Shown: one piece after another, positions 5,519 through 22,299 of the stretch
Layout of the letters: each line of letters begins with the position of its first letter
How positions within the stretch are numbered: the stretch's first letter is position 1
NCBI GenBank assembly: GCA_947441615.1
Contig: CANEUH010000012.1
Coordinates: 1-64,000 of the forward strand
Length of the DNA: 64,000 bases
From: Bacteriovoracaceae bacterium
Lineage (GTDB): Bacteria > Bdellovibrionota > Bacteriovoracia > Bacteriovoracales > Bacteriovoracaceae
Reading direction: 5' to 3'
Position numbers and translations under genes: made by a program
The notes under the pieces: generated by a model
The model's database searches: none
Seen by the model: the letters and a program-made list of their open reading frames with translations, nothing else
Told to the model about the DNA's origin: nothing

Positions 5519-6114
5519 TGATTGAACTTCCTGAAGTGATTAAAAATGCTGTTCTTGCTTTAACGAAGCTACCGGGCGTGGGTGAGAAGACCGCGTTTCG
5601 CATGGTTATGAGCATGACACATTGGAAACAACAGGAACTTAATACTGTTGGATCTTCCTTGATTGCACTTAAGGATCTTAAACTTTGCGAAGAATGTGGA
5701 ATGTTCGCTGATCATTTACTTTGTTCAATCTGTTCAGACACCAATCGTCAGTCCATTCAAGTGATTTGCATCGTTGAAAATGCCTCTGATCTCATGGCGA
5801 TTGAGAAGAGCGGGAACTTCAAGGGAATCTACCACATTTTGGGTGGAGTGCTTAATCCACTTCTTGGTGTCGGTCCTGATGAATTGGGAATGGATGAATT
5901 AAAAAACAGAATCATTGAAAAGAATGTTCAGGAAGTGATACTTGCGATCAATCCTTCAGTTGAAGGTGATGCGACTTGTTCTTATTTAAAGTCTCTTCTA
6001 CCGGAGAGTGTAAGGGTGGAAAGAATTGGTTTTGGTGTGCCTATTGGAGGAAGCTTAGAGTTCCTTGATCCCATGACAATTACGAAAGCTTTAGAAAACC
6101 GGAAAAGATTTTAA
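5518..6114 (+). CDS. recR: Recombination mediator RecR
   Basis: 198 residues, normal length. An N-terminal helix-hairpin-helix (LPGVGEKTAFR, about 18-28) precedes a zinc finger with cysteines at 57, 60, 69 and 72. A Toprim domain follows (VENASD about 86-91) and a C-terminal Walker-B-like segment (IGFGVPIGGSLEFLD). With RecO and RecF it loads RecA at gaps. Start overlaps the ybaB stop and stop overlaps the next start (TAATG). Confidence 0.96.
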   Translation: MIELPEVIKNAVLALTKLPGVGEKTAFRMVMSMTHWKQQELNTVGSSLIALKDLKLCEECGMFADHLLCSICSDTNRQSIQVICIVENASDLMAIEKSGNFKGIYHILGGVLNPLLGVGPDELGMDELKNRIIEKNVQEVILAINPSVEGDATCSYLKSLLPESVRVERIGFGVPIGGSLEFLDPMTITKALENRKRF

Positions 6115-6611
6115 TGAAGCCACAGAATATTACTGAAAAAATGAAGTTGATTTTAGAACCCAAAAAAATGGGTCTAAAGGCACGACTTTTTGTTACGAGA
6201 GATGACGGAATTACCATCTACGATTCAGTTCAGAATAATACAACAACATCAGTTTCAGCTCTTGTAAGCGGAGTTTGGCAAGCTTCAGAAGCCTTGATAG
6301 GAATTGCTAATCCAAATCAAGAGATCATGGAGTTTCGCTTTGGATTTGATACTTCTTCACAAGGTATTTATTTATTCCCACTCAATGTTGCGGGTAAGAG
6401 ATATTTTCTTGGAGCGATTTATCAGGATTGTCTAAATCCTGGTCAATTGAAACGACAAGTCGCACTTATTAAGGACGAAATGGATAAAATATTTTCTTCT
6501 GAAAGTGCATCTGTTGCAAAAAAAACAATAACAACAAATCGTGAAGGTTTCCTTTTTAAGGATATTTCAGACGAAGAAATAGATCGCCTCTTTTCACCGG
6601 GTAGAATTTAA
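6114..6611 (+). CDS. Roadblock/LC7-like protein, putative MglA regulator (MglB-like)
   Basis: 165 residues with the hydropathy pattern of a Roadblock/LC7 domain: an N-terminal helix, a strand ending in a DDG turn (about 30-33), a long central helix rich in small residues ([14 protein letters not shown]), paired strands, and a C-terminal helix near 120-132. A spacer then leads to a short acidic C-terminal helix ([11 protein letters not shown]). In Myxococcus the Roadblock protein MglB is the GTPase-activating partner of MglA. Here the gene lies one base upstream of mglA, supporting the same partnership. Similarity to MglB is judged by pattern only, and the C-terminal tail is unusual. Sequence divergence leaves GAP activity unproven. 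Confidence 0.7.
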
Positions 6612-6612
6612 T

Positions 6613-7203
6613 ATGTCATTTGTTAACTATCATACAAAAGAAATTAACTGCAAAATCGTCTATTACGGGCCAGGCCTTGGTGGTAAGACAACAAATATTC
6701 AGTATATATATCAAAAGACAAGCTCTCAAAATAAAGGCCAGATGATCACTCTTAATACAGAAAATGAAAGAACATTGTTCTTTGATTTTTTGCCATTAGA
6801 TCTTGGAGAGATCAGAGGATTTAAAACCCGCTTTCACCTTTACACTGTTCCTGGGCAAGTCTTTTATGAAGCTAGCCGAAAGCTCATCCTTAGAGGTGTA
6901 GATGGCCTCGTATTTGTGGCGGATTCTCAAGTAGAAAGAATGGAGGCCAATATAGAGTCCTATCAGGGACTAGAAAAAAATTTATCAGAACAGGGTTACG
7001 ATATTTCAAAAGTTCCAATGGTCATGCAATGGAACAAAAGAGATCTTCCAAATATTGTCCCTGCTGAAGATCTCCAGTATCAATTGAATAAAAGAAAATT
7101 TCCTGCCTTTGAAGCTGTTGCGACAACAGGTCAGGGCGTATTTGAAACTTTAAAAATGGTATCTAAATCAGTTCTCCTTAATATTAAGGGCGGACTGGAA
7201 TAG
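6613..7203 (+). CDS. mglA: MglA-type Ras-like polarity GTPase
   Basis: Small GTPase of 196 residues, the usual MglA length. G1/P-loop GPGLGGKTT is at 19-27, the G3 region is VPGQ at 79-82 (MglA-type, in place of DxxG), and G4 NKRD is at 141-144. MglA proteins switch between GDP and GTP forms to set cell polarity and control gliding or type IV pili in Myxococcus, and invasion in Bdellovibrio. It lies directly after the Roadblock gene with a one-base gap. A pilB gene lies at the far right of the window. Confidence 0.95.
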
Positions 7204-9782: not shown

Positions 9783-11702
9783 GTGAAGAATAGAATATTT
9801 ATAAGCTTCCTTATATTTTGTTTTTTATTCTCTGTTGTTGTCAGTAAGGCCTTCTATATTCAGGTGGTGAATAAAGGAAAGTTACTTTCTTACGCCAAAT
9901 CTCAGTTTATTAGGGAAGTTAAAGAATATCCAAACAGAGGGAACATTCTTGATAGGAATGGAAACCCTCTTGCGATCAATGTTCATGTTTATAATTTATT
10001 TACCATTCCAAGAAACAAGAATACGGAATTTTATAATCAATTAAAGACTCTCTCTAAAACTGTTCCGGAGCTCCCTTACCAGAAACTACGCTCACTTGTT
10101 CAACATAGAAATAAATACACTTGGCTAGCTCGTAAAATCCGCCTTTCTGAAGAACAACTTAAAAAGATTAAAAAACTAGATAATGTGTTTGTTGAATCTC
10201 ATTCACAAAGAGTTTATCCAAACAAAGATTTATTGTCCCAAACAATTGGCTTTGTTGGGCTTGATAATGTAGGTCTTGCGGGTATTGAAAATAGTCTTAA
10301 TAAAGAACTTAAAGGTAAGCCTCAAATCGTTAAATATATCAGAGACGCTAAGGGGCGTCCGATTAAATATGAAACGAAGGCGTCTGAGCTAGTTGCTCCT
10401 GATGTGGAGCTCTCTGTTGATAAAGATATCCAAGGTGCTCTTGAAAGTTACTTAAAAGAAGCGGTTTCTCATCACAGCGCTTTTCGAGCTGGGGCCGGAG
10501 TTATGGATGTAGAGACAGGAGAAATTCTTGCGATCGCTAATTACCCAACTTATGATCCTAATCAAGCGACCTCTTCACCACTTGAAAATAGAAAATTGGC
10601 CTTTGTTACAGATCCTTTTGAGCCAGGCTCAATCTTCAAAACACTGACGATTGCTTCCGCTTTAGAAAATAAAATTGCTAAGCCAGAAACAAAATATTTT
10701 TGTGAATATGGAAAAATGAAAGTTCAGAATCACTGGATCTCTGAAGCTGAAACTCACGAAAAATTTGAGTGGTTAACGGTATCTGATATTTTGAAATTTA
10801 GTTCAAATGTTGGAACGACGAAAGTAGCTTTTGCACTCAAGTACCCAAAGCTTAGAGAAACACTAGATAAATTTCAAATTGCTCAAAAAACGGGAATTGA
10901 AATCAAGGGGGAGTCTAAGGGGATTTTGAGTTTTAAGGCCAAAGACAAAGTTCGCCCATTATCTCTGAGTAATATTAGTTTCGGACAAGGAGTTGCTACG
11001 ACCGCCATCCAAATGATGAGGGCCTACGCTGCTATTGCGAATGGTGGCTATCTCGTAAAACCAACATTAATGAAAAATGAAACATCACAACTTACGCCTG
11101 AAAATAAAATCATCAGCACGCAAACTTCTGAACAAATGACCAAAATGTTGGTCTCCGTTGTGAGTGAAGGTACTGGTGATAACGCTCGAATTCCTCATTA
11201 TGAAATTGCTGGTAAGACGGGAACGGCCCAGAGAGTTTCACCGACTGGAGGCTATTCTGGCTATATTGGAAGCTTTGTAGGATTTCCAGTAAATGTGAAT
11301 AGAAAGTTTGTTGTGATGGTGTACGTGGACCATCCCACTGATAATGGATATTACGGTGGAGCGACAGCAGCACCTATCTTTAGAAAAATTACTCAATACA
11401 TTCTTTATAAGAAGAAAGATTTTGCACAGTTTGCAAAATATGATGAGAAATCAAATACTAAGAATCTTGATGAGGTTCAAACTCAACAAGCTCAAACGAC
11501 AAAATTTTTTGGAAGCGGCTTTATGCCTGATTTTTCTGGCCTAGATAAAGCAAGTGCCATTCAACTTGCTGAAGAAAGAAACTTGCAATTAGAAATTTAT
11601 GGATATGGAGTTGTTAAGAGGCAATCAATTGTACCTGGGACCGTTATTGATGGAAGGGCATCAATAAGACTGCAATTTGAAGCACCAACTTATGCTGAAT
11701 GA
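9783..11702 (+). CDS. ftsI: Septal peptidoglycan transpeptidase FtsI (PBP3) with PASTA domain
   Basis: Class B penicillin-binding protein of 639 residues, GTG start with AGGAAG upstream. A membrane anchor lies at 5-24 and a dimerisation domain with the RGNILDRNG motif follows. The catalytic domain has SIFK (Ser283, Lys286), SSN (340-342) and KTGT (478-481). A single PASTA domain occupies the last 70 residues (PDFSGLDKASAIQLAE). It cross-links septal peptidoglycan with the partner polymerase FtsW, encoded at 17069. The stop overlaps the murE start. Confidence 0.96.
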   Translation: MKNRIFISFLIFCFLFSVVVSKAFYIQVVNKGKLLSYAKSQFIREVKEYPNRGNILDRNGNPLAINVHVYNLFTIPRNKNTEFYNQLKTLSKTVPELPYQKLRSLVQHRNKYTWLARKIRLSEEQLKKIKKLDNVFVESHSQRVYPNKDLLSQTIGFVGLDNVGLAGIENSLNKELKGKPQIVKYIRDAKGRPIKYETKASELVAPDVELSVDKDIQGALESYLKEAVSHHSAFRAGAGVMDVETGEILAIANYPTYDPNQATSSPLENRKLAFVTDPFEPGSIFKTLTIASALENKIAKPETKYFCEYGKMKVQNHWISEAETHEKFEWLTVSDILKFSSNVGTTKVAFALKYPKLRETLDKFQIAQKTGIEIKGESKGILSFKAKDKVRPLSLSNISFGQGVATTAIQMMRAYAAIANGGYLVKPTLMKNETSQLTPENKIISTQTSEQMTKMLVSVVSEGTGDNARIPHYEIAGKTGTAQRVSPTGGYSGYIGSFVGFPVNVNRKFVVMVYVDHPTDNGYYGGATAAPIFRKITQYILYKKKDFAQFAKYDEKSNTKNLDEVQTQQAQTTKFFGSGFMPDFSGLDKASAIQLAEERNLQLEIYGYGVVKRQSIVPGTVIDGRASIRLQFEAPTYAE

Positions 11703-13053
11703 TAAAAAATTAAATTTAATACTTAATACAAATCTTCCTCATTTAGAAATTAGAGATATCCACTGGAAAGGTCAGGATTCTACTAAAGATTCAATACTTT
11801 TTTATAAGATCCTCCCGGATGAGAAGTCGCAAAATACGTTTACTGAAAGAATAGATAAAGCGCAGTTTGCTTGGTTGGTGGTTAATACAGATCACCCCTC
11901 AAGACCAATGAATAGTTCGGTAATTCCAGAAACGGAGTGGCCTAGAATTCAAAAAGAAATTCTTGATGAACTCTACCCTATGCCAAGTTTAAAGTTGATT
12001 GCGATCACAGGGACGAATGGTAAAACAACGACTGCAGATCTGGTGCTTCAGCTAGGTCATCTCATTGGCAAAGAAGGTCTAAGTATTGGCACCCTCGGTG
12101 TTCGTGAATATTATAAAACGATTGTAGATTTCGGCTTAACTTCCCCTAGTTATATTGATTTAAGAAAATTTCTAAATCTCTACGGAAAAGATAAGGCGTT
12201 TTGTGTTCTTGAAGCGAGCTCTCATGCTTTAACTCAAGGTCGACTCTATGGTTTAAAGTTTGATATGGGGGCGTGGCTTTCATTTTCACAAGATCATCTG
12301 GATTATCACAAAACAATGGAAGAGTACTTTGCCGCAAAGATGCTTCTCTTTGATTACTTAAAAGAAGGGGCCAGGGTATTCGTCCCTTCTGAGCAGAATG
12401 AGCTATATTCAAAAATTCATCATGTAACAAAAAAAGTCGCTCGTTCTGAAACGATAGATCAACCATTACCAATTTTTTTTAGCACCACATTTAATAGAAA
12501 TAATCTGGAAGTTGCCTTAGATATTATCAAGAGTTCATTTGGACTAACTGATACAATTGATTTTAATCAAATTATTCCGCCCGATGGCCGATTTTTTATT
12601 CGTCCCTACAAATCAAATTACATCGTCGTGGATTTTGCCCATACTCCTGATGCTTTAGAAAATATTTGTCGTGGTATAAAAGAGGCGTTTCCGCTTCATA
12701 AATTAAAAGTTCTTTTTGGCTGTGGCGGAGATAGGGATCGTACAAAACGACCTATCATGGGAAAAATTGCAGAAACATTTGGATCGGAAATTTATCTTAC
12801 CAGTGATAATCCTCGTTCCGAGAATCCTGATCAAATAATTGAAGATATATTTAAAGGGATGAACTCGGTTCATATTCACAAAATAGTCGACCGAAGAGAA
12901 GCTGTTAGAATTGCTTTTTCGGAACTAAAAGATAATGAAATTTTACTTCTCGCCGGCAAGGGTCACGAGGATTATATTCTCATCAATGGCGTTAAGCATC
13001 CTTATAGTGATATTGGTGAAGTTGAAGCTTTTCTTCTTAGGGACAATACATGA
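11692..13053 (+). CDS. murE: UDP-MurNAc-L-Ala-D-Glu:meso-diaminopimelate ligase
   Basis: Mur ligase of about 453 residues. The ATG at 11692 overlaps the ftsI stop by 11 bases and is preferred to an earlier TTG. P-loop GTNGKTT is at 107-113. EASSHAL, the DHLDYH catalytic segment, YFAAK with the carbamylated lysine, HTPDALE and GCGGDRD all follow. The DNPR motif (372-375) is the hallmark of meso-diaminopimelate specificity. It adds the third amino acid of the stem peptide. The N-terminal substrate domain is short and divergent. Confidence 0.96.
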   Translation: MLNDKKLNLILNTNLPHLEIRDIHWKGQDSTKDSILFYKILPDEKSQNTFTERIDKAQFAWLVVNTDHPSRPMNSSVIPETEWPRIQKEILDELYPMPSLKLIAITGTNGKTTTADLVLQLGHLIGKEGLSIGTLGVREYYKTIVDFGLTSPSYIDLRKFLNLYGKDKAFCVLEASSHALTQGRLYGLKFDMGAWLSFSQDHLDYHKTMEEYFAAKMLLFDYLKEGARVFVPSEQNELYSKIHHVTKKVARSETIDQPLPIFFSTTFNRNNLEVALDIIKSSFGLTDTIDFNQIIPPDGRFFIRPYKSNYIVVDFAHTPDALENICRGIKEAFPLHKLKVLFGCGGDRDRTKRPIMGKIAETFGSEIYLTSDNPRSENPDQIIEDIFKGMNSVHIHKIVDRREAVRIAFSELKDNEILLLAGKGHEDYILINGVKHPYSDIGEVEAFLLRDNT

Positions 13054-14447
13054 TTAATTTAAGTCTTTTAAAAAACTGTCATGCTCTTAAGAAATCTTTT
13101 CTTAAGTCAGGTAAATTACATTTTTGTACAGATTCAAGGCGGTATCAACACCCAGGTGCATTTGTTGCTATCCCTGGAGCCAAGGTTAATCCACTGGATC
13201 TTATTGATGGTTTACTTCAAAAAAAATGCCCCTTAGTTTTTTTTCAAGAAGATGCAATTAACAATGAGAAGGTGAGATCCTTAAGTTCACATTATCCAGA
13301 GACAGAGTTTGTTCCTGTTTCTGATAGTGTTACCTTTCTTCAAGAAGTTTCACATGAGCACATTAAAGAATGGAAAAAAAATAATCCTCGAAATACAGTC
13401 TTTGCGATATCGGGATCAAACGGAAAAACGACCCATAAAGAGATGCTTTCATTTATTTTAAAAGAAGTCATGCCAGAGAAAGTTATTTCCACTGAAAAAA
13501 ATAACAATAATCATCTTGGCGTCCCTCTTACACTTTTAGGTGTATCCGAAGAAACCGAAATTGTTGTTCTCGAGTTAGGTAGTAACCATCCTGGAGAGAT
13601 CAAAGTTCTTTGTGACATCGCTCAGCCTAATGCGGGTATAACAACAAATATTGGTGCGACTCACATGGAGTTCTTTGGGACCGAAGAAAAGGTTTTTGAA
13701 GAAGAAGCTTACCTCTACCAAGCTGTGAAGGAAGTGACTGGTGGAAAAGGTTTTTATCTCATTAATCTTGATGACCCCTATTTAAAATCATTAGGACCGA
13801 CAGTTGGTTCTCTTACGTACGGAACGTCCTCATCTGCTATGGCAAAAGTTTCTTTCTTAGATGATGGAGCAGAGATTCACTCTAGCGGAATAGATTTAAT
13901 CGCTCGAAATTCACACATTACCGGTCAGCATAACAAGCTTAACCTCATAACGTGTTTATTAATCGCCTCACGCATGTACCCAGAGTACAAATCTCAATTT
14001 GTTGAGGCGTGTAAAAACTTTCGTCCCACAAAAAATCGCTCAGAGTGGATCCACTTTGAGAATCGTTCAGTTTATTTGGATGCTTATAACGCAAACCCTT
14101 CCTCGATGAAGGCCGCACTCGAGGGCTTTAAAGAGAGTGTCCTTTCTCAGGGGTTTAAAATGTCGGAAGCTTGTATTGTGCTAGGGGACATGAACGAACT
14201 AGGTGAGACAACTCCTCAGTATCACGAAGACGTTGGGTCATTTGTGCAAAAACTGGGTTTCGATAATGTTTATTTTGTTGGCCGGTTTGCTGAGTATTAT
14301 ATGAAGGGTTGTCGCCACGGACAGAAGAAGAGTTCAAGTGCCGAATTTAAAAGTGAGTACAGGAATGAGTGTTTAAAACAATTCCCAATTCACTTCATTA
14401 AGGGATCCCGCTCTTTACAATTAGAGTCACTGTTCGATATAACTTAA
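13050..14447 (+). CDS. murF: UDP-MurNAc-tripeptide D-alanyl-D-alanine ligase
   Basis: 465 residues. P-loop GSNGKTT with Lys126, EKNNNNHLGVPLTLL, TNIGATHMEFFG and DAYNANPSSMKAAL are characteristic of MurF. It adds D-Ala-D-Ala to complete the pentapeptide. ATG overlaps the murE stop (ATGA). The region that usually reads AKAKGEI is EEEAYLY here, so the lysine commonly carbamylated in Mur ligases appears to be glutamate; this may still supply the negative charge. Otherwise the enzyme looks intact. Confidence 0.94.
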   Translation: MINLSLLKNCHALKKSFLKSGKLHFCTDSRRYQHPGAFVAIPGAKVNPLDLIDGLLQKKCPLVFFQEDAINNEKVRSLSSHYPETEFVPVSDSVTFLQEVSHEHIKEWKKNNPRNTVFAISGSNGKTTHKEMLSFILKEVMPEKVISTEKNNNNHLGVPLTLLGVSEETEIVVLELGSNHPGEIKVLCDIAQPNAGITTNIGATHMEFFGTEEKVFEEEAYLYQAVKEVTGGKGFYLINLDDPYLKSLGPTVGSLTYGTSSSAMAKVSFLDDGAEIHSSGIDLIARNSHITGQHNKLNLITCLLIASRMYPEYKSQFVEACKNFRPTKNRSEWIHFENRSVYLDAYNANPSSMKAALEGFKESVLSQGFKMSEACIVLGDMNELGETTPQYHEDVGSFVQKLGFDNVYFVGRFAEYYMKGCRHGQKKSSSAEFKSEYRNECLKQFPIHFIKGSRSLQLESLFDIT

Positions 14448-14472: not shown

Positions 14473-15549
14473 ATGCTGTATCATTGGCTTTACCCACTGA
14501 GTCAAAAGTTTCATTTATTTAATCTTTTTAAATACATTACTTTTAGATCTTTTTTGGCGTTCATTATTGCAACTATTGTTTCCATTTTTTGGGGTAAGCG
14601 ATTTATTGCTCTTATGAAACTCAGACAATTTGGTCAGACGATTCGAGATGATGGCCCTGAAACGCACAAAAAGAAAAAGGGGACTCCGACTTTTGGTGGA
14701 GTTTTTATTTTGGGTTCTGCTGCGGTCGCTTGTTTGATTTGTGGAAATTTCGTTTCCTTTCCTTTTCTGATTGCTGCTTTTGTCACTGTCTCTTATTTCT
14801 TTTTGGGTGGGCTTGATGATTACCTCAAGGTGTTAAAGAAAAACACGAAGGGTGTTTCTGCGAGACAAAAATTAGTATGGCAGTTTTCTACGGCACTTAT
14901 CGCTTCCTACGTTATGATCAAGTGGGGGGTTACGGATTCAAAAATCTATCTTCCTTTTCTTAAAGATCCAGTGATCGATATTGGTTGGTTCTATGTTCCG
15001 TTTGCGGCCTTCGTTATCGTAGGATCCTCTAATGCTCTCAATTTAACTGATGGACTTGATGGTCTCGCTATCGGTCCAACGATTACTTCTGCAGCGACTC
15101 TTGGGTTACTTGCTTATCTCGCTGGGCACTCTGAGCTTGCGAATTATCTTTTTATTCCCTATGTCCCTGATGTCGGAGAACTATTAGTTCTCGTATCTGC
15201 TATTATTGGGGCCGGTGTGGGCTTTCTTTGGTACAACGCATATCCAGCCGAGATTTTCATGGGCGACGTTGGATCCTTATCGCTAGGCGGAGGATTAGGA
15301 ACCATTGCAGTTCTCACAAAGAACGAATTTCTTTTCGTCTTAATTGGTGGAATTTTTGTGATTGAAGCACTTTCAGTTATTATTCAGGTGGCATCATTTA
15401 AAACTCGTGGCAAAAGAATCTTCAAAATGGCACCCATTCATCATCATTTTGAGTTGATGGGATGGCCTGAGACTAAAGTGATTGTGAGATTTTGGATTGT
15501 AAGTCTCATTTTTGCGATTATTGCACTCGCCACATTAAAACTAAGATAA
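14473..15549 (+). CDS. mraY: Phospho-MurNAc-pentapeptide transferase
   Basis: 358 residues with about ten membrane helices, normal for MraY. KGTPTFGG, GGLDDYLKVLKK, NALNLTDGLDGLA, EIFMGDVGSLSLGG and the MAPIHHHFE loop are all present, covering the active-site aspartates and the HHH motif. It transfers phospho-MurNAc-pentapeptide to undecaprenyl phosphate, making lipid I. AAAGGG lies 6-7 bases before the ATG. Confidence 0.97.
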   Translation: MLYHWLYPLSQKFHLFNLFKYITFRSFLAFIIATIVSIFWGKRFIALMKLRQFGQTIRDDGPETHKKKKGTPTFGGVFILGSAAVACLICGNFVSFPFLIAAFVTVSYFFLGGLDDYLKVLKKNTKGVSARQKLVWQFSTALIASYVMIKWGVTDSKIYLPFLKDPVIDIGWFYVPFAAFVIVGSSNALNLTDGLDGLAIGPTITSAATLGLLAYLAGHSELANYLFIPYVPDVGELLVLVSAIIGAGVGFLWYNAYPAEIFMGDVGSLSLGGGLGTIAVLTKNEFLFVLIGGIFVIEALSVIIQVASFKTRGKRIFKMAPIHHHFELMGWPETKVIVRFWIVSLIFAIIALATLKLR

Positions 15550-15566: not shown

Positions 15567-16949
15567 ATGGAAAAATATAAAGGGAAAAAAGTCCTCGTTG
15601 TTGGTCTTGGAAAAACAGGATTTGCCCTGATTAATCTATTTACTCAGTGGGGATGTGAAATAAAAGTCACAGATATGAAGCCCATTTTTGACCTCAATAA
15701 ACAGGTTAAAAGACTTAAGAAAATTAACCCAACTCCAACGATGACACTTGGAGAGCATAAAGACGAAGATTTTATCGATGCAGAAATTATTGTTTATTCT
15801 TCTTCAGTAGATCCGAACCTTCCACAGCTTCGTGTTGCCCGTGAACATGGTAGAGCCGTTTATTCAGATTTCGCTTTCGCCTATGAAAACTGTCATAAAC
15901 CTATTGTTGCTGTCTGCGGTTCTCATGGTCGCACGATTACGGCACATATGATTGGCTACACATTAAAACTTGATAAAAAGAATGTCTTTATTGGCGGAAC
16001 TTCTGAAGAGCCGTTTATTAATTTTTTAACAATGCAAGGAAGAGATGAGGTTGACTACTGTGTGGTTGAAGTTTCTCCACAACAACTTCAGACTGTTGAA
16101 AGTTTTAAACCGATTCTTGCTGTTTATCCAAACCTGGAAGAGAAAAATCTTCTAGGCCGCTTTAAAAACTCTGCGGAATATCTTGATACAGCACTTAAAG
16201 TTGCAAAAAATCTAGGCCCTGAAAATTACTTAATTGTAAATTTTGATAAGCTTGCTTCAAATTCTGTTTTAAGGTCTTCTCAAGCTCAAACCTTCTGGTA
16301 TTCAAGAAAATCATTCGTAACGATGGGAGTGATTTCTGAAATTCAAGGAACTCATTTCCACGATAAGAGAATCCACTCAAATATCCACTTCCACTCAGAG
16401 TTTAAAGTCACAGATATGAGAATTGTGGGTGTTAATAATCGCGAAAATCTCATGGCCGCGATCACTGCTTGTAAGGCACTCAGAGTTTCTGATAGCGCTA
16501 TTCAGCAGTGTATTGAGAAATTTCCTGGAATCCCACATCGTCTTGAATTTGTTGTAGAAAAAAATGGCGTTCGTTTTTATAACGATTCTAAATCTGAAAC
16601 AATGGATGAGATGAAGGTCTCTCTCGATGCTTTTAAAGACCAAGTAATTCTTATTGCTGGTGGGAAAGAAATCGAAGGTCTTCCTTTTGATAAGTATGCC
16701 AATATTATTCGTGAAAAAGTTCGTGTTTTAGTTCTCGTGGGTGAAGTGAAAGAAACGATGAACCGAGTTCTTGGTGACGTGACTCAAACTTATCTTGTTG
16801 GATCATTTGACGAGTCGGTTCTTCTTGCTTACCAAAAATCAAGAACAGGCGACACGATCCTTCTTTGTCCTGGAAACGATAGCACAGATGTGTTTCGTGA
16901 CTTTGAAGAGAAAGGAAACTATTACAAAAAACTTATTTTCCAACTCTAA
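15567..16949 (+). CDS. murD: MurD-like ligase with degenerate ATP-binding and catalytic motifs
   Basis: 460 residues, in the murD position of the dcw cluster. The N-terminal Rossmann domain (VLVVGLGKTGFALINLF) and C-terminal domain (FPGIPHRLE, NDSKSE, LLCPG-DSTDVFRDF) fit MurD. The central ATPase domain is abnormal. The P-loop reads GSHGRT (118-123), with Arg122 in place of the essential lysine. The usual NxxxDHLDRH motif reads NLEEKNLLGRF (189-199), losing the Asp-His pair. The carbamylated lysine position is Ala209. ELSSFQL is reduced to EVSPQQL. Either it works by a modified mechanism or it is catalytically dead and another murD exists. TAAGGAG lies 8 bases before the ATG. A hairpin follows the stop. 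Confidence 0.85.
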   Translation: MEKYKGKKVLVVGLGKTGFALINLFTQWGCEIKVTDMKPIFDLNKQVKRLKKINPTPTMTLGEHKDEDFIDAEIIVYSSSVDPNLPQLRVAREHGRAVYSDFAFAYENCHKPIVAVCGSHGRTITAHMIGYTLKLDKKNVFIGGTSEEPFINFLTMQGRDEVDYCVVEVSPQQLQTVESFKPILAVYPNLEEKNLLGRFKNSAEYLDTALKVAKNLGPENYLIVNFDKLASNSVLRSSQAQTFWYSRKSFVTMGVISEIQGTHFHDKRIHSNIHFHSEFKVTDMRIVGVNNRENLMAAITACKALRVSDSAIQQCIEKFPGIPHRLEFVVEKNGVRFYNDSKSETMDEMKVSLDAFKDQVILIAGGKEIEGLPFDKYANIIREKVRVLVLVGEVKETMNRVLGDVTQTYLVGSFDESVLLAYQKSRTGDTILLCPGNDSTDVFRDFEEKGNYYKKLIFQL

Positions 16950-17068: not shown

Positions 17069-18232
17069 ATGAGTGAAAATAATCGACTAGAAAAGTTAAC
17101 AAACTACTTTCTTATAAATGTCTTTTTTATCATCCTTTTCGGGGTGATCATGGTGTTTTCTGCGAGCTACATGTACGCCACAGAGAATATGGGGTCGAGC
17201 TACTTTTTTCTTATAAAGCAGCTTATTTTTATCGCCATGGGTTTAGCTATCGCCTTGGTCTTTTCAAAACTTAAAATTCTCTATCTCTATAAACAGGCCT
17301 ACAAAATTAACGCCTTCTTTGGATTTTTAGTCACTCTCACGCTTGTACCGGGGCTTAGGGTTGTGATTAAGGGATCGAAGCGTTGGTTGAATCTCGGTTT
17401 TATGAATCTTCAGCCTGGAGAGTTTTTAAAATACACTCTGATGCTTGCGGCGATTCGGTATTTTGAGAATTTTAATAACTACTCACCAAAACAAAGAGTT
17501 GTTTATCTCTCAGGAATTGTTTATCCCCTGGCGATTTTTATTCTTCAACCTGACTTTGGGACGTTCTTTATTTCTGCACTTATAATCGGGTTCATCGCCT
17601 TTTTAAGTTCATTTCCAAGGAAATACTTTTACTCGGCCCTGGTTATGGGAATGATTGGAGCTTTTGGGATTCTTATTTCTGCGCCTTATCGCGTGAAGAG
17701 ACTTCTCACCTTTCTTGATCCATGGAAGGACCCACGAGGTGCTGGCTTTCAGGTCATACAGTCTTTTCTCGCCTTTGCTAACGGAGCCTTTTTTGGTCAA
17801 GGTTTAGGGAATAGTAATGAGAAATTATTTTATCTTCCAGAAGCTTATAACGACTTTATTTTCTCCGTCGTTGGTGAGGAACTTGGTTTTATAGGAGTTG
17901 TCGTTACGGTTCTCATGTTTATTAGTTTTATTTTTATTGGACTCAAAATAGCAATCTCTCTGAAATCAAGAGTCGGAAGTATCATGGTGGCAGCGATTGT
18001 TTTTGCTATTGGCTTTCAAGCGTTCATGAATATGGGTGTTGTCCTTGGTGTTCTTCCTACAAAAGGACTGAATCTTCCCTTTATTAGTTATGGTGGCTCT
18101 TCAATGGTTGCTAATTTAGCGGCATTGGGACTCATTTTTGCGTGTGTAAAAATTCAGCCAAGTGATGCCAAAGAAGTTAAAAATCTCGGAAAACAAACTC
18201 CCATAAGAGCATTGAGGAGTGCATTCGGCTAA
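17069..18232 (+). CDS. ftsW: Septal peptidoglycan polymerase FtsW (SEDS family)
   Basis: 387 residues, about ten membrane helices. SEDS signatures include KGSKRWLNLGFMNLQPGEFLK, the FILQPDFGT segment with the catalytic-loop aspartate, LTFLDPWKDPRGAGFQ, the EAYNDFIFSVVGEELGF loop and a C-terminal GLNLPFISYGGSSM. It polymerises lipid II at the septum with FtsI. There is no clear ribosome site; an inverted repeat precedes the ATG. Its stop overlaps the murG start by one base. Confidence 0.97.
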   Translation: MSENNRLEKLTNYFLINVFFIILFGVIMVFSASYMYATENMGSSYFFLIKQLIFIAMGLAIALVFSKLKILYLYKQAYKINAFFGFLVTLTLVPGLRVVIKGSKRWLNLGFMNLQPGEFLKYTLMLAAIRYFENFNNYSPKQRVVYLSGIVYPLAIFILQPDFGTFFISALIIGFIAFLSSFPRKYFYSALVMGMIGAFGILISAPYRVKRLLTFLDPWKDPRGAGFQVIQSFLAFANGAFFGQGLGNSNEKLFYLPEAYNDFIFSVVGEELGFIGVVVTVLMFISFIFIGLKIAISLKSRVGSIMVAAIVFAIGFQAFMNMGVVLGVLPTKGLNLPFISYGGSSMVANLAALGLIFACVKIQPSDAKEVKNLGKQTPIRALRSAFG

Positions 18233-19287
18233 TGAAATACGCAGTCATAGTTGCTGGAGGTACAGGTGGGCATATCAATGCGGCATTAGCTATTGGTGAA
18301 GCTCTGCAATCGGAAGACTGGGATATTCAATATCTCACAGGTAAAAGACCTCTCGATTATAAGTTGTTTAAAAAACAGAAAGTGATTCATCTTGATTCAA
18401 AACCACTTCGAACAAAAAATCCATTTCAGCTCATAAGTAACATTCTTTTAAACTTTTTTAGTTTTTTCACGATTCTTTTAAAGTTTATATCTCATCGTCC
18501 AAAGTTTATTGTGGGCGCCGGTGGCTACGTCTGTGGCCCAACCTTACTTGCTGGATTCTTGCTTTTCATTCCCGTGTTTATTATTGAACAAAATGCAGTT
18601 ATGGGGCTAACAAACCGTATATTAGGGTGGATTTCTGCTCGAATCTTTGTTCACTTCACTAAAACGAGAGGTCTTTCTCCAAGTCTTACTAAAAAAGTAC
18701 GGGTGGTGGGTAATCCGACCAGAAAGTCGATCCAGCCAGTTTTGCCAAAATCTTTTGATGGTGAACTCAAAGTTTTAGTTTTCGGTGGAAGTCTTGGTGC
18801 TTCACAAATAAATAAGGTCATCTGGGAAGTGCTTCAAAACCCTTCTGTTCAAAAACTAAGAATTCATCATCAGTTAGGCGGTGATGTAAAAGCTCCAGAA
18901 ATTAAAACCACAGCGAATTACATTCCTCTGGGCTATATCGATGATATGCAAAAAGAATACGAGTGGTGTGATGTGATTATTTCTCGGTCCGGTGCCAGCA
19001 CAGTTTCAGAGCTTGCGATTATTAAAAAGCCGGTTTTGATCTTCCCTTATCCCGCAGCGACCGATAATCACCAGTATTATAATGCTCAAATTTTTCAGGA
19101 AGAATCTGATTTTACTGTCGAATTGCTCGATCCAAAATTGCCTCATCCCGAATGCGTTAAGCATACACAGGATTTTCTTTTCAAGGCCAGCCATCAAGAG
19201 TTAAAGTACTCTAAAACCCCCTCTCCAGGGAATCATACCTGTGATGAGGTTTTAAGAGAGATTAAATCGCATGTTGGGATGGCTTAA
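18232..19287 (+). CDS. murG: UDP-GlcNAc:lipid I N-acetylglucosaminyltransferase
   Basis: 351 residues. N-terminal GGTGGHINAALAIGEAL and VGAGGYVCGPTLLAG are the lipid-I-facing G loops, and VFGGSLGASQIN and RSGASTVSELA are the UDP-GlcNAc sites. It converts lipid I to lipid II at the inner membrane face. The start forms TAATG with the ftsW stop, and its end overlaps the murC start by 17 bases. Confidence 0.97.
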   Translation: MKYAVIVAGGTGGHINAALAIGEALQSEDWDIQYLTGKRPLDYKLFKKQKVIHLDSKPLRTKNPFQLISNILLNFFSFFTILLKFISHRPKFIVGAGGYVCGPTLLAGFLLFIPVFIIEQNAVMGLTNRILGWISARIFVHFTKTRGLSPSLTKKVRVVGNPTRKSIQPVLPKSFDGELKVLVFGGSLGASQINKVIWEVLQNPSVQKLRIHHQLGGDVKAPEIKTTANYIPLGYIDDMQKEYEWCDVIISRSGASTVSELAIIKKPVLIFPYPAATDNHQYYNAQIFQEESDFTVELLDPKLPHPECVKHTQDFLFKASHQELKYSKTPSPGNHTCDEVLREIKSHVGMA

Positions 19288-20647
19288 AACGACAAAACTT
19301 CATTTTATTGGTATCGGCGGAATTGGGATGAGTGGAATTGCAGAAGTTCTCCTTGATCTAGGTTACTCCGTATCTGGATCAGATCTGAATTCCTCACCAG
19401 TGGTTGAAAATTTGAAAAATAAAGGTGCTGAAATCTTCATAGGCCACAAGGCCTCGAACGTGGAAGGATGCGCACTTATTATTTATAGCTCTGCCATTGA
19501 TAATAAAAATCCTGAAGTTATACGTGCCAAACAACTTCAAATTCCCATGATTAGAAGAGCTGAAATGCTGGCGGAATTAATGAGATTAAAGTTTGGAATT
19601 GCAGTAGCTGGATCTCACGGTAAAACTACGACGACGAGTCTTATCGCAACTATTTTTCATGAGGCAAAACTTGATGCCACTTATATTATTGGTGGAATTG
19701 TCAGAAACCTAGGTGGAAATGCCAAAAAAGGTGACGGAGAGTATTTGATCGCTGAGGCGGATGAGTCTGATGGTTCTTTTCTTCTTCTTAATCCAATCAT
19801 GGCGGCCGTAACCAATATCGATGATGACCATCTTGATCACTACGGCACGAAAGAAAAAATTGTGGAAGCATTTATTGAATTTGTGAATAAGACACCTTTT
19901 TACGGAAGGGTTGCTCTTAATGCCAATGACGCCACATCGGTAGAAATTAAAACTCAAGTTAAGCGCCCGATTGTTTGGTACGGAATTGAGGTTGGCGGCG
20001 ATGATATTGATTACGTCGCCAATGCTGTGGAACTATCGGCATCGGGGACGAAGTTTGATCTTTATTTTAAAGGCGAAAAGATCGCTCGCATTCAAACCAA
20101 TCTCATGGGTTACCACAATATCTCAAACTCTCTAGCGGCCATTGCCATTTCAAGAGAAGCGGGACTCGATTGGGATATCATTCAAAAAGGGTTATTAAGT
20201 TTCCAAGGAGTCGGTCGTCGACTTGAAAAACTCTATGAAAAAAATTCATTCGTTGTTATTGATGATTATGGACATCACCCGACAGAAGTGAGGGCGACAA
20301 TTTCAACACTCAGAAGAGTCGATAAAAGAACTCTCTGTGTTGTGTTTGAGCCCCATCGCTATACTCGCACACAGAATTTCTGGAAAGAATTTCAAGAATG
20401 TTTTGAAGGAGCGGACGAGCTCTATCTAACGCCTATTTATGCTGCGTCTGAGAATCCGATAGAAGGAATTACTTCTGAAGCTCTGATTAAAGAAATGAAA
20501 GCTAAGGGTAAAAATGTGTTCTTAATTGAAAACCTGGATGAGATGAAAACATTAATTACGGATAGAAAAAATAAAGAATTGGTCTTCGTCACTCTTGGAG
20601 CTGGTGCGATTTCAAAAAAAATCCGGGAGATTATTAAGTCACTATGA
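19271..20647 (+). CDS. murC: UDP-N-acetylmuramate:L-alanine ligase
   Basis: 458 residues. N-terminal HFIGIGGIGMSGIAEVL, P-loop GSHGKTTTT with an intact lysine, EADESDGSF, TNIDDDHLDHYG, and the C-terminal DDYGHHPTEV and FEPHRYTRT motifs identify MurC. It starts stem-peptide synthesis by adding L-alanine to UDP-MurNAc. ATG overlaps the murG end, and ATGA overlaps murB. Its complete motif set contrasts with the degenerate MurD in the same cluster. Confidence 0.97.
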   Translation: MLGWLKTTKLHFIGIGGIGMSGIAEVLLDLGYSVSGSDLNSSPVVENLKNKGAEIFIGHKASNVEGCALIIYSSAIDNKNPEVIRAKQLQIPMIRRAEMLAELMRLKFGIAVAGSHGKTTTTSLIATIFHEAKLDATYIIGGIVRNLGGNAKKGDGEYLIAEADESDGSFLLLNPIMAAVTNIDDDHLDHYGTKEKIVEAFIEFVNKTPFYGRVALNANDATSVEIKTQVKRPIVWYGIEVGGDDIDYVANAVELSASGTKFDLYFKGEKIARIQTNLMGYHNISNSLAAIAISREAGLDWDIIQKGLLSFQGVGRRLEKLYEKNSFVVIDDYGHHPTEVRATISTLRRVDKRTLCVVFEPHRYTRTQNFWKEFQECFEGADELYLTPIYAASENPIEGITSEALIKEMKAKGKNVFLIENLDEMKTLITDRKNKELVFVTLGAGAISKKIREIIKSL

Positions 20648-21546: not shown

Positions 21547-22299
21547 ATGCTTAGATCATCTTTAGTATTTATATTGATCCTTTTCCCTAGCATTGTTCTA
21601 TCTAGTGTTCCTGAGCGATTCACTCAGAAAAATGTGAATTACCGTACCTATTTCGGTGATTGCCCATCAAAGTCTTCAGGTATGATCACTTTGATACTCA
21701 TGAAAGAGTTTGAAAAGAATCACTCCCTTAAGGAAGTGAAAGAAAAAATCTTGTCCGAAAAGTTAGATGAGAAGTTCTTTTTAAGTGATTACCGTATTTC
21801 TTATAATCCAGTTGTAAAAACACTGAGGATCCACTTTGAGTGTCCAGAACCACTTGCCAAAGTTCAGGTGTATCGAACAAATGGTCAGGAACACTATTCG
21901 GCTATTTTGGCTTCAAATGCTCGGATGTATGAACCTCAGTATGAAAATCTCATGAGGGCAGAAAAAAAATTAAATCACGCTCTTCCACTGATGGCGATTT
22001 CGATGGATCTTCTTGAGGGGAGTGCCCCTACAGAGCTGGCAAACTTTATTAAGAAAATAGATATTGATTTAAGAAAGCAGATTTCTGAAATTATATTAAG
22101 TAAAAACAGTGAGTTGACTATTATTTTCGCTCTCGGTGGGAAGGCGACAAGTGTCTTTATGGGAGCTGATCTTTGGGAAGAGAAACTCTCAAAGCTCACG
22201 AAAATAGTGGGTTACGTGGGAAAGAATAATCGTTTCCCAACCAGTATTAATTTGGTCAATTCAAAAAAGGTTGTTGTCAAGTTTTCTGACAAAATCTAA
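21547..22299 (+). CDS. Divergent FtsQ-like periplasmic protein
   Basis: 250 residues, lying between murB and ftsA exactly where ftsQ is expected. The N-terminus is a short hydrophobic segment (about 3-19) that could be a membrane anchor or a cleavable signal; FtsQ normally has a longer cytoplasmic tail. The C-terminal part (KLSKLTKIVGYVGKNNRFP... INLVNSKKVVVKF) matches the last strands of the FtsQ beta domain. Two cysteines (GDCPS and FECPEP) may form a disulfide. A POTRA domain is not obvious by eye. FtsQ assignment rests on position and the C-terminal pattern. Confidence 0.55.
   Translation: MLRSSLVFILILFPSIVLSSVPERFTQKNVNYRTYFGDCPSKSSGMITLILMKEFEKNHSLKEVKEKILSEKLDEKFFLSDYRISYNPVVKTLRIHFECPEPLAKVQVYRTNGQEHYSAILASNARMYEPQYENLMRAEKKLNHALPLMAISMDLLEGSAPTELANFIKKIDIDLRKQISEIILSKNSELTIIFALGGKATSVFMGADLWEEKLSKLTKIVGYVGKNNRFPTSINLVNSKKVVVKFSDKI

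Follow-up and report, generated by a model that had tools for sequence, protein, structure and literature searches.

The window analysed here is a stretch of 64,000 nucleotides from a Bacteriovoracaceae bacterium (contig CANEUH010000012.1, positions 1 to 64,000). Its division and cell wall (dcw) cluster includes a murD gene, hereafter murD1, which is an open reading frame (ORF) and encodes a MurD that has lost several residues of the catalytic centre. The gene order around it is murE-murF-mraY-murD-ftsW-murG-murC, followed by a murB-like ORF (murB assigned by eye). An earlier note on this DNA, made from the sequence alone, had listed some of the altered residues and proposed either an enzyme with an altered mechanism or a pseudo-ligase whose functional counterpart is encoded elsewhere. 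In the features given below, E. coli residue numbers come from HMMER alignments to solved MurDs, and counts refer to 77 distinct murD1 sequences of the window's class, the window's own included, after removal of identical sequences and of those shorter than 400 amino acids.

15567..16949, + strand: murD1, dcw-encoded MurD with catalytic residues lost, 460 amino acids (open ORF, family model, class alignment)
15915..15935, + strand: altered P-loop C117-G-S-H-G-R122-T, with Arg122 in place of Lys (E. coli K115); Arg in 77/77
15999..16001, + strand: codon of T145, at E. coli N138; Asn in 1/77
16068..16088, + strand: E168-V-S-P-Q-Q-L (residues 168-174; ELSSFQL in normal MurD); E168, equivalent to E. 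coli E157, is kept, with Glu in 76/77
16143..16148, + strand: K193-N194, at D182-H183 of the DHLDR motif; His at 194 in 0/77
16191..16193, + strand: codon of A209, at the carbamylated Lys198; Lys in 34/77, so that the loss is not fixed in the class
16596..16598, + strand: codon of E344, at T321 (D-Glu side); Thr in 4/77, Glu in 73

The neighbouring genes are:

11677..14447, + strand: murE and murF, with normal P-loops
14473..15549, + strand: mraY, directly upstream of murD1
17069..18232, + strand: ftsW, directly downstream of murD1
18232..20647, + strand: murG and murC

In the class, mraY adjoins murD1 on the same strand in 75/77 loci and ftsW does so in 72/77.

Active site and fold of murD1

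What the earlier note had read in the motifs is confirmed in the ORF: the P-loop lysine is replaced by Arg122, the DH pair by K193-N194, and ELSSFQL has become EVSPQQL, while the MurC, MurE and MurF encoded nearby retain their P-loop lysines. The replacement of the carbamylated lysine by Ala209 stands for the window as well but is not general in the class. To that list we add losses at N138, G73, T321 and K348. A further set of 22 murD1 sequences, some of them possibly repeats of the earlier ones, has Arg at the P-loop position and Thr at N138 in 22/22. Sequencing or assembly error behind Arg122 is ruled out because this residue recurs in every class sequence examined, and the comparison with orthologues of the clade that had been suggested as a check revealed normal motifs in none of the 77 + 22 sequences. 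The P-loop lysine, present in 0/77 murD1 sequences, is found in 86/86 of the second MurD copies described below and in 47/47 MurDs encoded in the dcw cluster of genomes with a single copy.

On what we take to be the UDP-MurNAc side of the ligase, N138 is kept in 1/77 sequences, H183 in 0/77 and G73 in 4/77; on the D-Glu side, T321 is kept in 4/77 (mostly replaced by Glu), K348 in 0/77 and S415 in 50/77. E157 (76/77), N271 (76/77), R302 (75/77), D317 (76/77) and K319 (76/77) are retained. With the roles that we presume for the P-loop and the ATP-side residues, murD1 reads as altered at three substrate sides of the ligase, with Arg fixed in the P-loop and the ATP-side residues kept. According to passages of PMC3527612, T321, K348 and S415 contact D-Glu or a carboxylate and N138 contacts an inhibitor, and a role of K198 in MurD is treated in an extract of PMC4816537.

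The protein is still recognized as a member of its family, with 261.6 bits against the NCBIfam MurD equivalog model (cut-off 211.95). Its AlphaFold2 model has a mean predicted local distance difference test (pLDDT) score of 80, and the 33 best Foldseek matches of this model in the PDB are all MurD, with template modelling (TM) scores of at most 0.75 by query and 0.79 by target. Compared with ordinary MurDs, as represented by the E. coli, S. agalactiae and P. aeruginosa structures, murD1 is alike in fold, in its place in the dcw cluster and in passing the family cut-off, but differs at the P-loop Lys, H183, N138, T321 and K348, in having newly fixed residues, and in the presence of a second MurD elsewhere in its genome. 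The MurT model also matches murD1, weakly (E 0.0002). MurT is a protein of Mur-ligase fold with a role other than the stepwise addition of amino acids, in which it resembles what is proposed here for murD1; in contrast, MurT has catalytic activity and works with GatD as its partner.

A second MurD in the class and across the phylum

Six proteins with a Mur ligase middle domain are encoded in the window's genome: MurE, MurF, MurC, murD1, a MurC/Mpl-like protein (assigned by eye) and a second MurD. The last was brought out by a genome-wide search of the kind the earlier note had called for; it lies on another contig (C7:41259-42575; L004:1162-2478) and carries GTNGKTT, EVSSFQLE, NHSER and the lysine of the carbamylation site. 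The MurD model gives it 321 bits, against 262 bits for murD1. This intact-looking MurD in the same genome supports the suggestion of a pseudo-ligase with the real MurD elsewhere.

In the class, murD1 is present in 109/116 genomes and in 73/73 of those of high quality, with no internal stop in any of the 110 matches listed, and the second MurD is found in 100/116 and 69/73, respectively (E <= 1e-86). Once identical second copies and those shorter than 375 amino acids (in the first set) had been dropped, the eight core residues K115, N138, E157, H183, K198, D317, K319 and T321 were all present in 71/71. One genome (G011) holds two murD1 copies, on contigs C39 and C7 (92 and 88% identical to that of the window), and with 5% contamination it is perhaps a mixed bin.

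The second copies of the class have features of their own: Arg at K348 in 71/71, Pro at A414 in 70/71 and, at L416, Phe in 67 sequences and Tyr in 4. The MurD2 of Xanthomonas oryzae is described in passages of PMC8788868 as the L-Glu ligase of the MurD2/MurL pathway, with four reported changes, three of which recur in the second MurD of the class, to which, rather than to murD1, this comparison applies. As against the MurD2/MurL bacteria of these passages, the class has a match to glutamate racemase (MurI) in 9/10 genomes tested, 8 of them above the cut-off. An L-Glu pathway running through the second copy is thus hinted at by three residues, though MurI matches are present.

The phylum was searched in 114 genomes, arranged in families labelled with f-numbers (f1 being the window's class), and the same eight core residues were scored. 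A second MurD outside the dcw cluster occurs in six families, f1, f6, f7, f15, f17 and f22. In these, the dcw copy is intact in 0/77, 1/8, 0/4, 0/1, 0/2 and 0/1 sequences, respectively, the f6 copies coming from 8 of 14 two-copy genomes, and the second copy is intact in 86/86 aligned sequences (71/71 in f1, 15/15 in the other families). The dcw MurD of the 15 single-copy families is intact in 47/47, these being distinct sequences set against 56 such genomes, some of which were left out; eight of the 15 families, and also f15 and f22, are represented by one sequence each. Single-copy status was mostly assessed at E <= 1e-40, and at 1e-12 for one genome each of f11, f14, f18 and f21 and for some of f2, f7, f8 and f9. 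At the level of families, the association of a second MurD with an altered dcw copy has a Fisher p of 1.8e-5, or 9.4e-5 with f2 counted against it, in a test that ignores shared ancestry; f2, which is discussed below, does not figure among the single-copy families in the conservation, patch and core-residue counts.

Different residues are lost in different families: the P-loop Lys, N138, H183 and T321 in f1; N138, H183, K198 and K319 in f17; N138 and K198 in f22; and N138 only in f6 and in f15. Losses in f7 (L201, L211, L276, L278) are scattered over E157, K198, K319 and other positions, with the P-loop Lys kept, and this family reads as having come to the same end by another route. For one f7 genome (G055), the second copy was seen only at 1e-12, in pieces, and stands outside the alignment. 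Two f8 genomes (G042 and G185, 97% and 94% complete) have no MurD match at E <= 1e-40 and one weak match each (~1e-17 to 1e-18) at 1e-12, although the dcw MurD is present and intact elsewhere in f8. The similar split in five other families, like the conserved C-terminal patch described below, goes beyond what the earlier note had foreseen.

Trees were built from thinned sets of 64 rows each and are unrooted, with several weak deep branches; the window's MurC, MurE and MurF, included as outgroup rows, gave long branches, and the tree was left unrooted. In these trees, murD1 clusters with the dcw MurDs that other families encode, apart from the second copy of its class. Second copies form three separate clades (f6 with f7 and f17; f1; and f15 with f22, the last lying among dcw MurDs). 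Those families that have two copies do not have their dcw copies united in a single clade: five label changes are counted, at least three of them forced by starred branches. A recent duplication giving rise to murD1 and the second MurD of the class is not supported by these trees.

Conservation of the dcw copy and its C-terminal patch

Ratios of non-synonymous to synonymous substitution rates (dN/dS) were obtained between the window's genome and the closest relative identified, which was L037 in the case of the dcw genes and G008 in that of the second MurD. With several dS values high (0.5-1.6), they are 0.0185 for murD1, 0.0134 for mraY (partial gene), 0.0086 for ftsW, 0.0357 for murC, 0.0407 for murG and 0.0602 for the second MurD. 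Positions at least 97% identical number 143/460 in murD1 (77 sequences); single-copy dcw MurDs (15 families) have 62 such positions and the second copies of the class 54. Fixed residues of murD1 that single-copy dcw MurDs rarely have number 45. Over the 20 loci whose murD1 is 85-97% identical to that of the window, median identity to the window is 89.5% for murD1, 88.5% for mraY, 85.8% for ftsW, 75.4% for murC, 74.3% for murG, 67.5% for murF and 62.4% for murE. Over the class, the corresponding medians are 63.3% for murD1 (39 loci) and 38.1% for the second copy (40 loci), and the ratio of change of murD1 to that of MraY is 1.01. The same asymmetry is seen in eight genomes of f6, where conservation is higher for the dcw copy than for the second one in 28/28 pairs (median 81.5 vs 50.8%).

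In the window's class, murD1 is not decaying: the gene is open and under purifying selection. Together with the loss of catalytic residues read from its sequence, this is the combination by which a pseudoenzyme is recognized. The view of murD1 as an unusually slow gene was dropped, as the dcw MurDs of single-copy families also change at about the pace of MraY (median ratio 0.81-1.31).

There are 33 positions, or 32 without the start Met, at which murD1 and single-copy dcw MurDs are constrained alike and second copies are not. Seventeen of these 32 dcw-specific positions fall in residues 390-428 (hypergeometric p 3.7e-12), which define the following feature:

16734..16850, + strand: C-terminal patch, residues 390-428 (KE..NR..G......AYQKSR), conserved in dcw MurDs whether their active site is intact or altered; the f5 sequence L233 departs

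The median match of dcw MurDs to the 17 patch positions is 1.00 in f1, 0.94 in f6, 0.94 in the other altered copies and 0.94 in single-copy families (range 0.12-1.00), against 0.12 in both groups of second copies (highest 0.41). The patch corresponds in the model to a strand (385-391), a helix (395-402), a strand (407-411) and a helix (414-424) of the C-terminal domain. As far as the alignments tell, it is the second copy that carries the intact active site and the dcw copy that has retained the patch.

Two other places in the window deserve mention. An ORF at 21547-22299 (+) occupies the usual place of ftsQ, between the murB-like ORF and ftsA (both assigned by eye); a Pfam search of its protein gave no match, and it is perhaps a diverged FtsQ. 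At 6114-7203 (+), a small ORF with no Pfam match precedes an MglA-like small GTPase (assigned by eye).

Possible roles of murD1

We give a probability of about 0.6 to the following reading: murD1 is a pseudo-ligase derived from an ordinary dcw MurD, the unlinked second MurD ligates Glu, and the dcw copy is kept for a function independent of catalysis, presumably docking. The dcw MurD of the phylum would have performed both ligation and a non-catalytic task, and where a second, unlinked MurD took over catalysis, the dcw copy would have kept only the latter, as in the window's class. Docking would be effected by the conserved part of the C-terminal domain (helices 395-402 and 414-424), through which the protein would hold or regulate the MraY-MurG-FtsW machinery of lipid II synthesis and division. 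The products of mraY and ftsW are natural candidate partners because their genes adjoin murD1 in nearly all class loci, and murD1 may bind nucleotide, given its fixed Arg122 and the retention of residues on the ATP side. We infer the loss of activity of murD1 and the activity of the second copy, as well as the binding of nucleotide and the partner.

Such contacts have parallels in other bacteria, where Mur enzymes bind MraY, MurG and MreB (extract of PMC4929429), MurG binds MurD (extract of PMC6420597) and FtsZ, FtsW and FtsQ interact with Mur synthetases (extract of PMC3605390). A wider proposal, to which we grant slightly less than even odds, is that the dcw MurD has an ancient, catalysis-independent function in the assembly or regulation of MraY-FtsW, seated at residues 390-428, and that, wherever a second MurD took over the ligation of Glu, the dcw copy lost catalysis and turned into a dedicated protein of division and wall assembly. 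This would have come about several times independently, in six families, with the five label changes of the tree, three of them forced, as the count of such events. Among the papers listed in searches of an open-access library, titles and the beginnings of abstracts contained no description of such a catalytically altered dcw MurD. A Tn-seq study of B. bacteriovorus (PMC6561027) makes no mention of murD in its main text.

Several observations weigh against the docking proposal. The second MurD was not found in 4/73 high-quality class genomes (G069, G079, G127, G141) at E <= 1e-86, a search that fragments could escape. Three of the four belong to genera where other genomes have one, which is not so for G069, and a looser profile search, made for missing second copies in nine genomes, found none in G069 and G079. 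The second-MurD matches of five genomes (G032, G082, G130, G134, G144) have one stop inside each, with open frames of 417-465 amino acids; the stop may lie at the match edge. In f2 (L288, G146), the dcw MurD is altered, with several core residues lost, and a search with the family model, covering 14 genomes outside the class, found no second MurD in the f2 genomes, which are 75-88% complete. The dcw MurD of f6 may still work, because its sole core change is at N138, which is kept in 1/8. Those of f7 and f17 outpace MraY (ratios 1.65 and 1.39), in keeping with a relaxed, weaker constraint there. The MraY-like pace of murD1 itself is inherited, a retained constraint rather than the mark of a new role, because single-copy dcw MurDs share it. 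Sharing of the patch is likewise in part phylogeny, because dcw copies have common ancestry; this ancestry hardly explains the concentration in one stretch or the persistence in copies with altered active sites. The single-copy dcw MurD of f5 (L233) is without most of the patch. Lastly, no Mur synthetase of M. tuberculosis bound another, according to a passage of PMC3605390.

Among other explanations, the one that survives best is the altered enzyme of the earlier note, which on the sequences compared here appears less likely than a pseudo-ligase and which we consider unlikely overall. murD1 would bind ATP through its Arg-containing P-loop and catalyse another ligation or a phosphoryl transfer, its substrate being a relative of the usual UDP-MurNAc compound or some other acceptor. 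The P-loop glycines, Arg122, E168, N294, R325, D340 and K342 are indeed nearly invariant, and the 45 newly fixed positions are what a new active site would need. However, the P-loop Lys and His183 are absent throughout the class set, there are changes on both the Glu side and the UDP-MurNAc side, and residues 390-428 account for much of the constraint that murD1 has in common with intact dcw MurDs (17/32 positions).

Less probable still is a pseudoenzyme-enzyme pair in which murD1 would be the regulatory subunit of the second MurD, as their co-occurrence in high-quality class genomes might suggest (73/73 and 69/73). Across the six families, however, at least three clades have supplied the second copies, and that of the class changes much faster than murD1 (38.1 vs 63.3% median identity), whereas a fixed interface should slow both. 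Slow decay, with the dcw copy a relic held by its operon place, would account for the fast dcw copies of f7 and f17 and for the scattered losses of f7, but in the window's class it is made very improbable by the 143/460 highly conserved positions, the dN/dS of 0.0185, the MraY ratio of 1.01 and the absence of internal stops in the 110 matches. Equally improbable is a murD1 still working as MurD with Arg for Lys, the second copy serving recycling or another wall: the score above the NCBIfam cut-off and the four genomes in which no second copy was found speak for it, but the residue changes of murD1 and the eight core residues kept in all 71 second copies of the class speak against it.

If the docking proposal is right, its interest reaches beyond this locus. 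Mur ligases have long been suspected of joining MraY, MurG and proteins of division in one complex, and catalysis and scaffolding are hard to part in one protein. Evolution appears to have parted the two here, leaving one MurD that is predicted to work and one that looks catalytically dead and still evolves no faster than MraY. A structural role of MurD would then be testable alone, in predators whose genomes are sequenced. In the window's class, the name MurD given to the dcw gene probably misstates what its product does.
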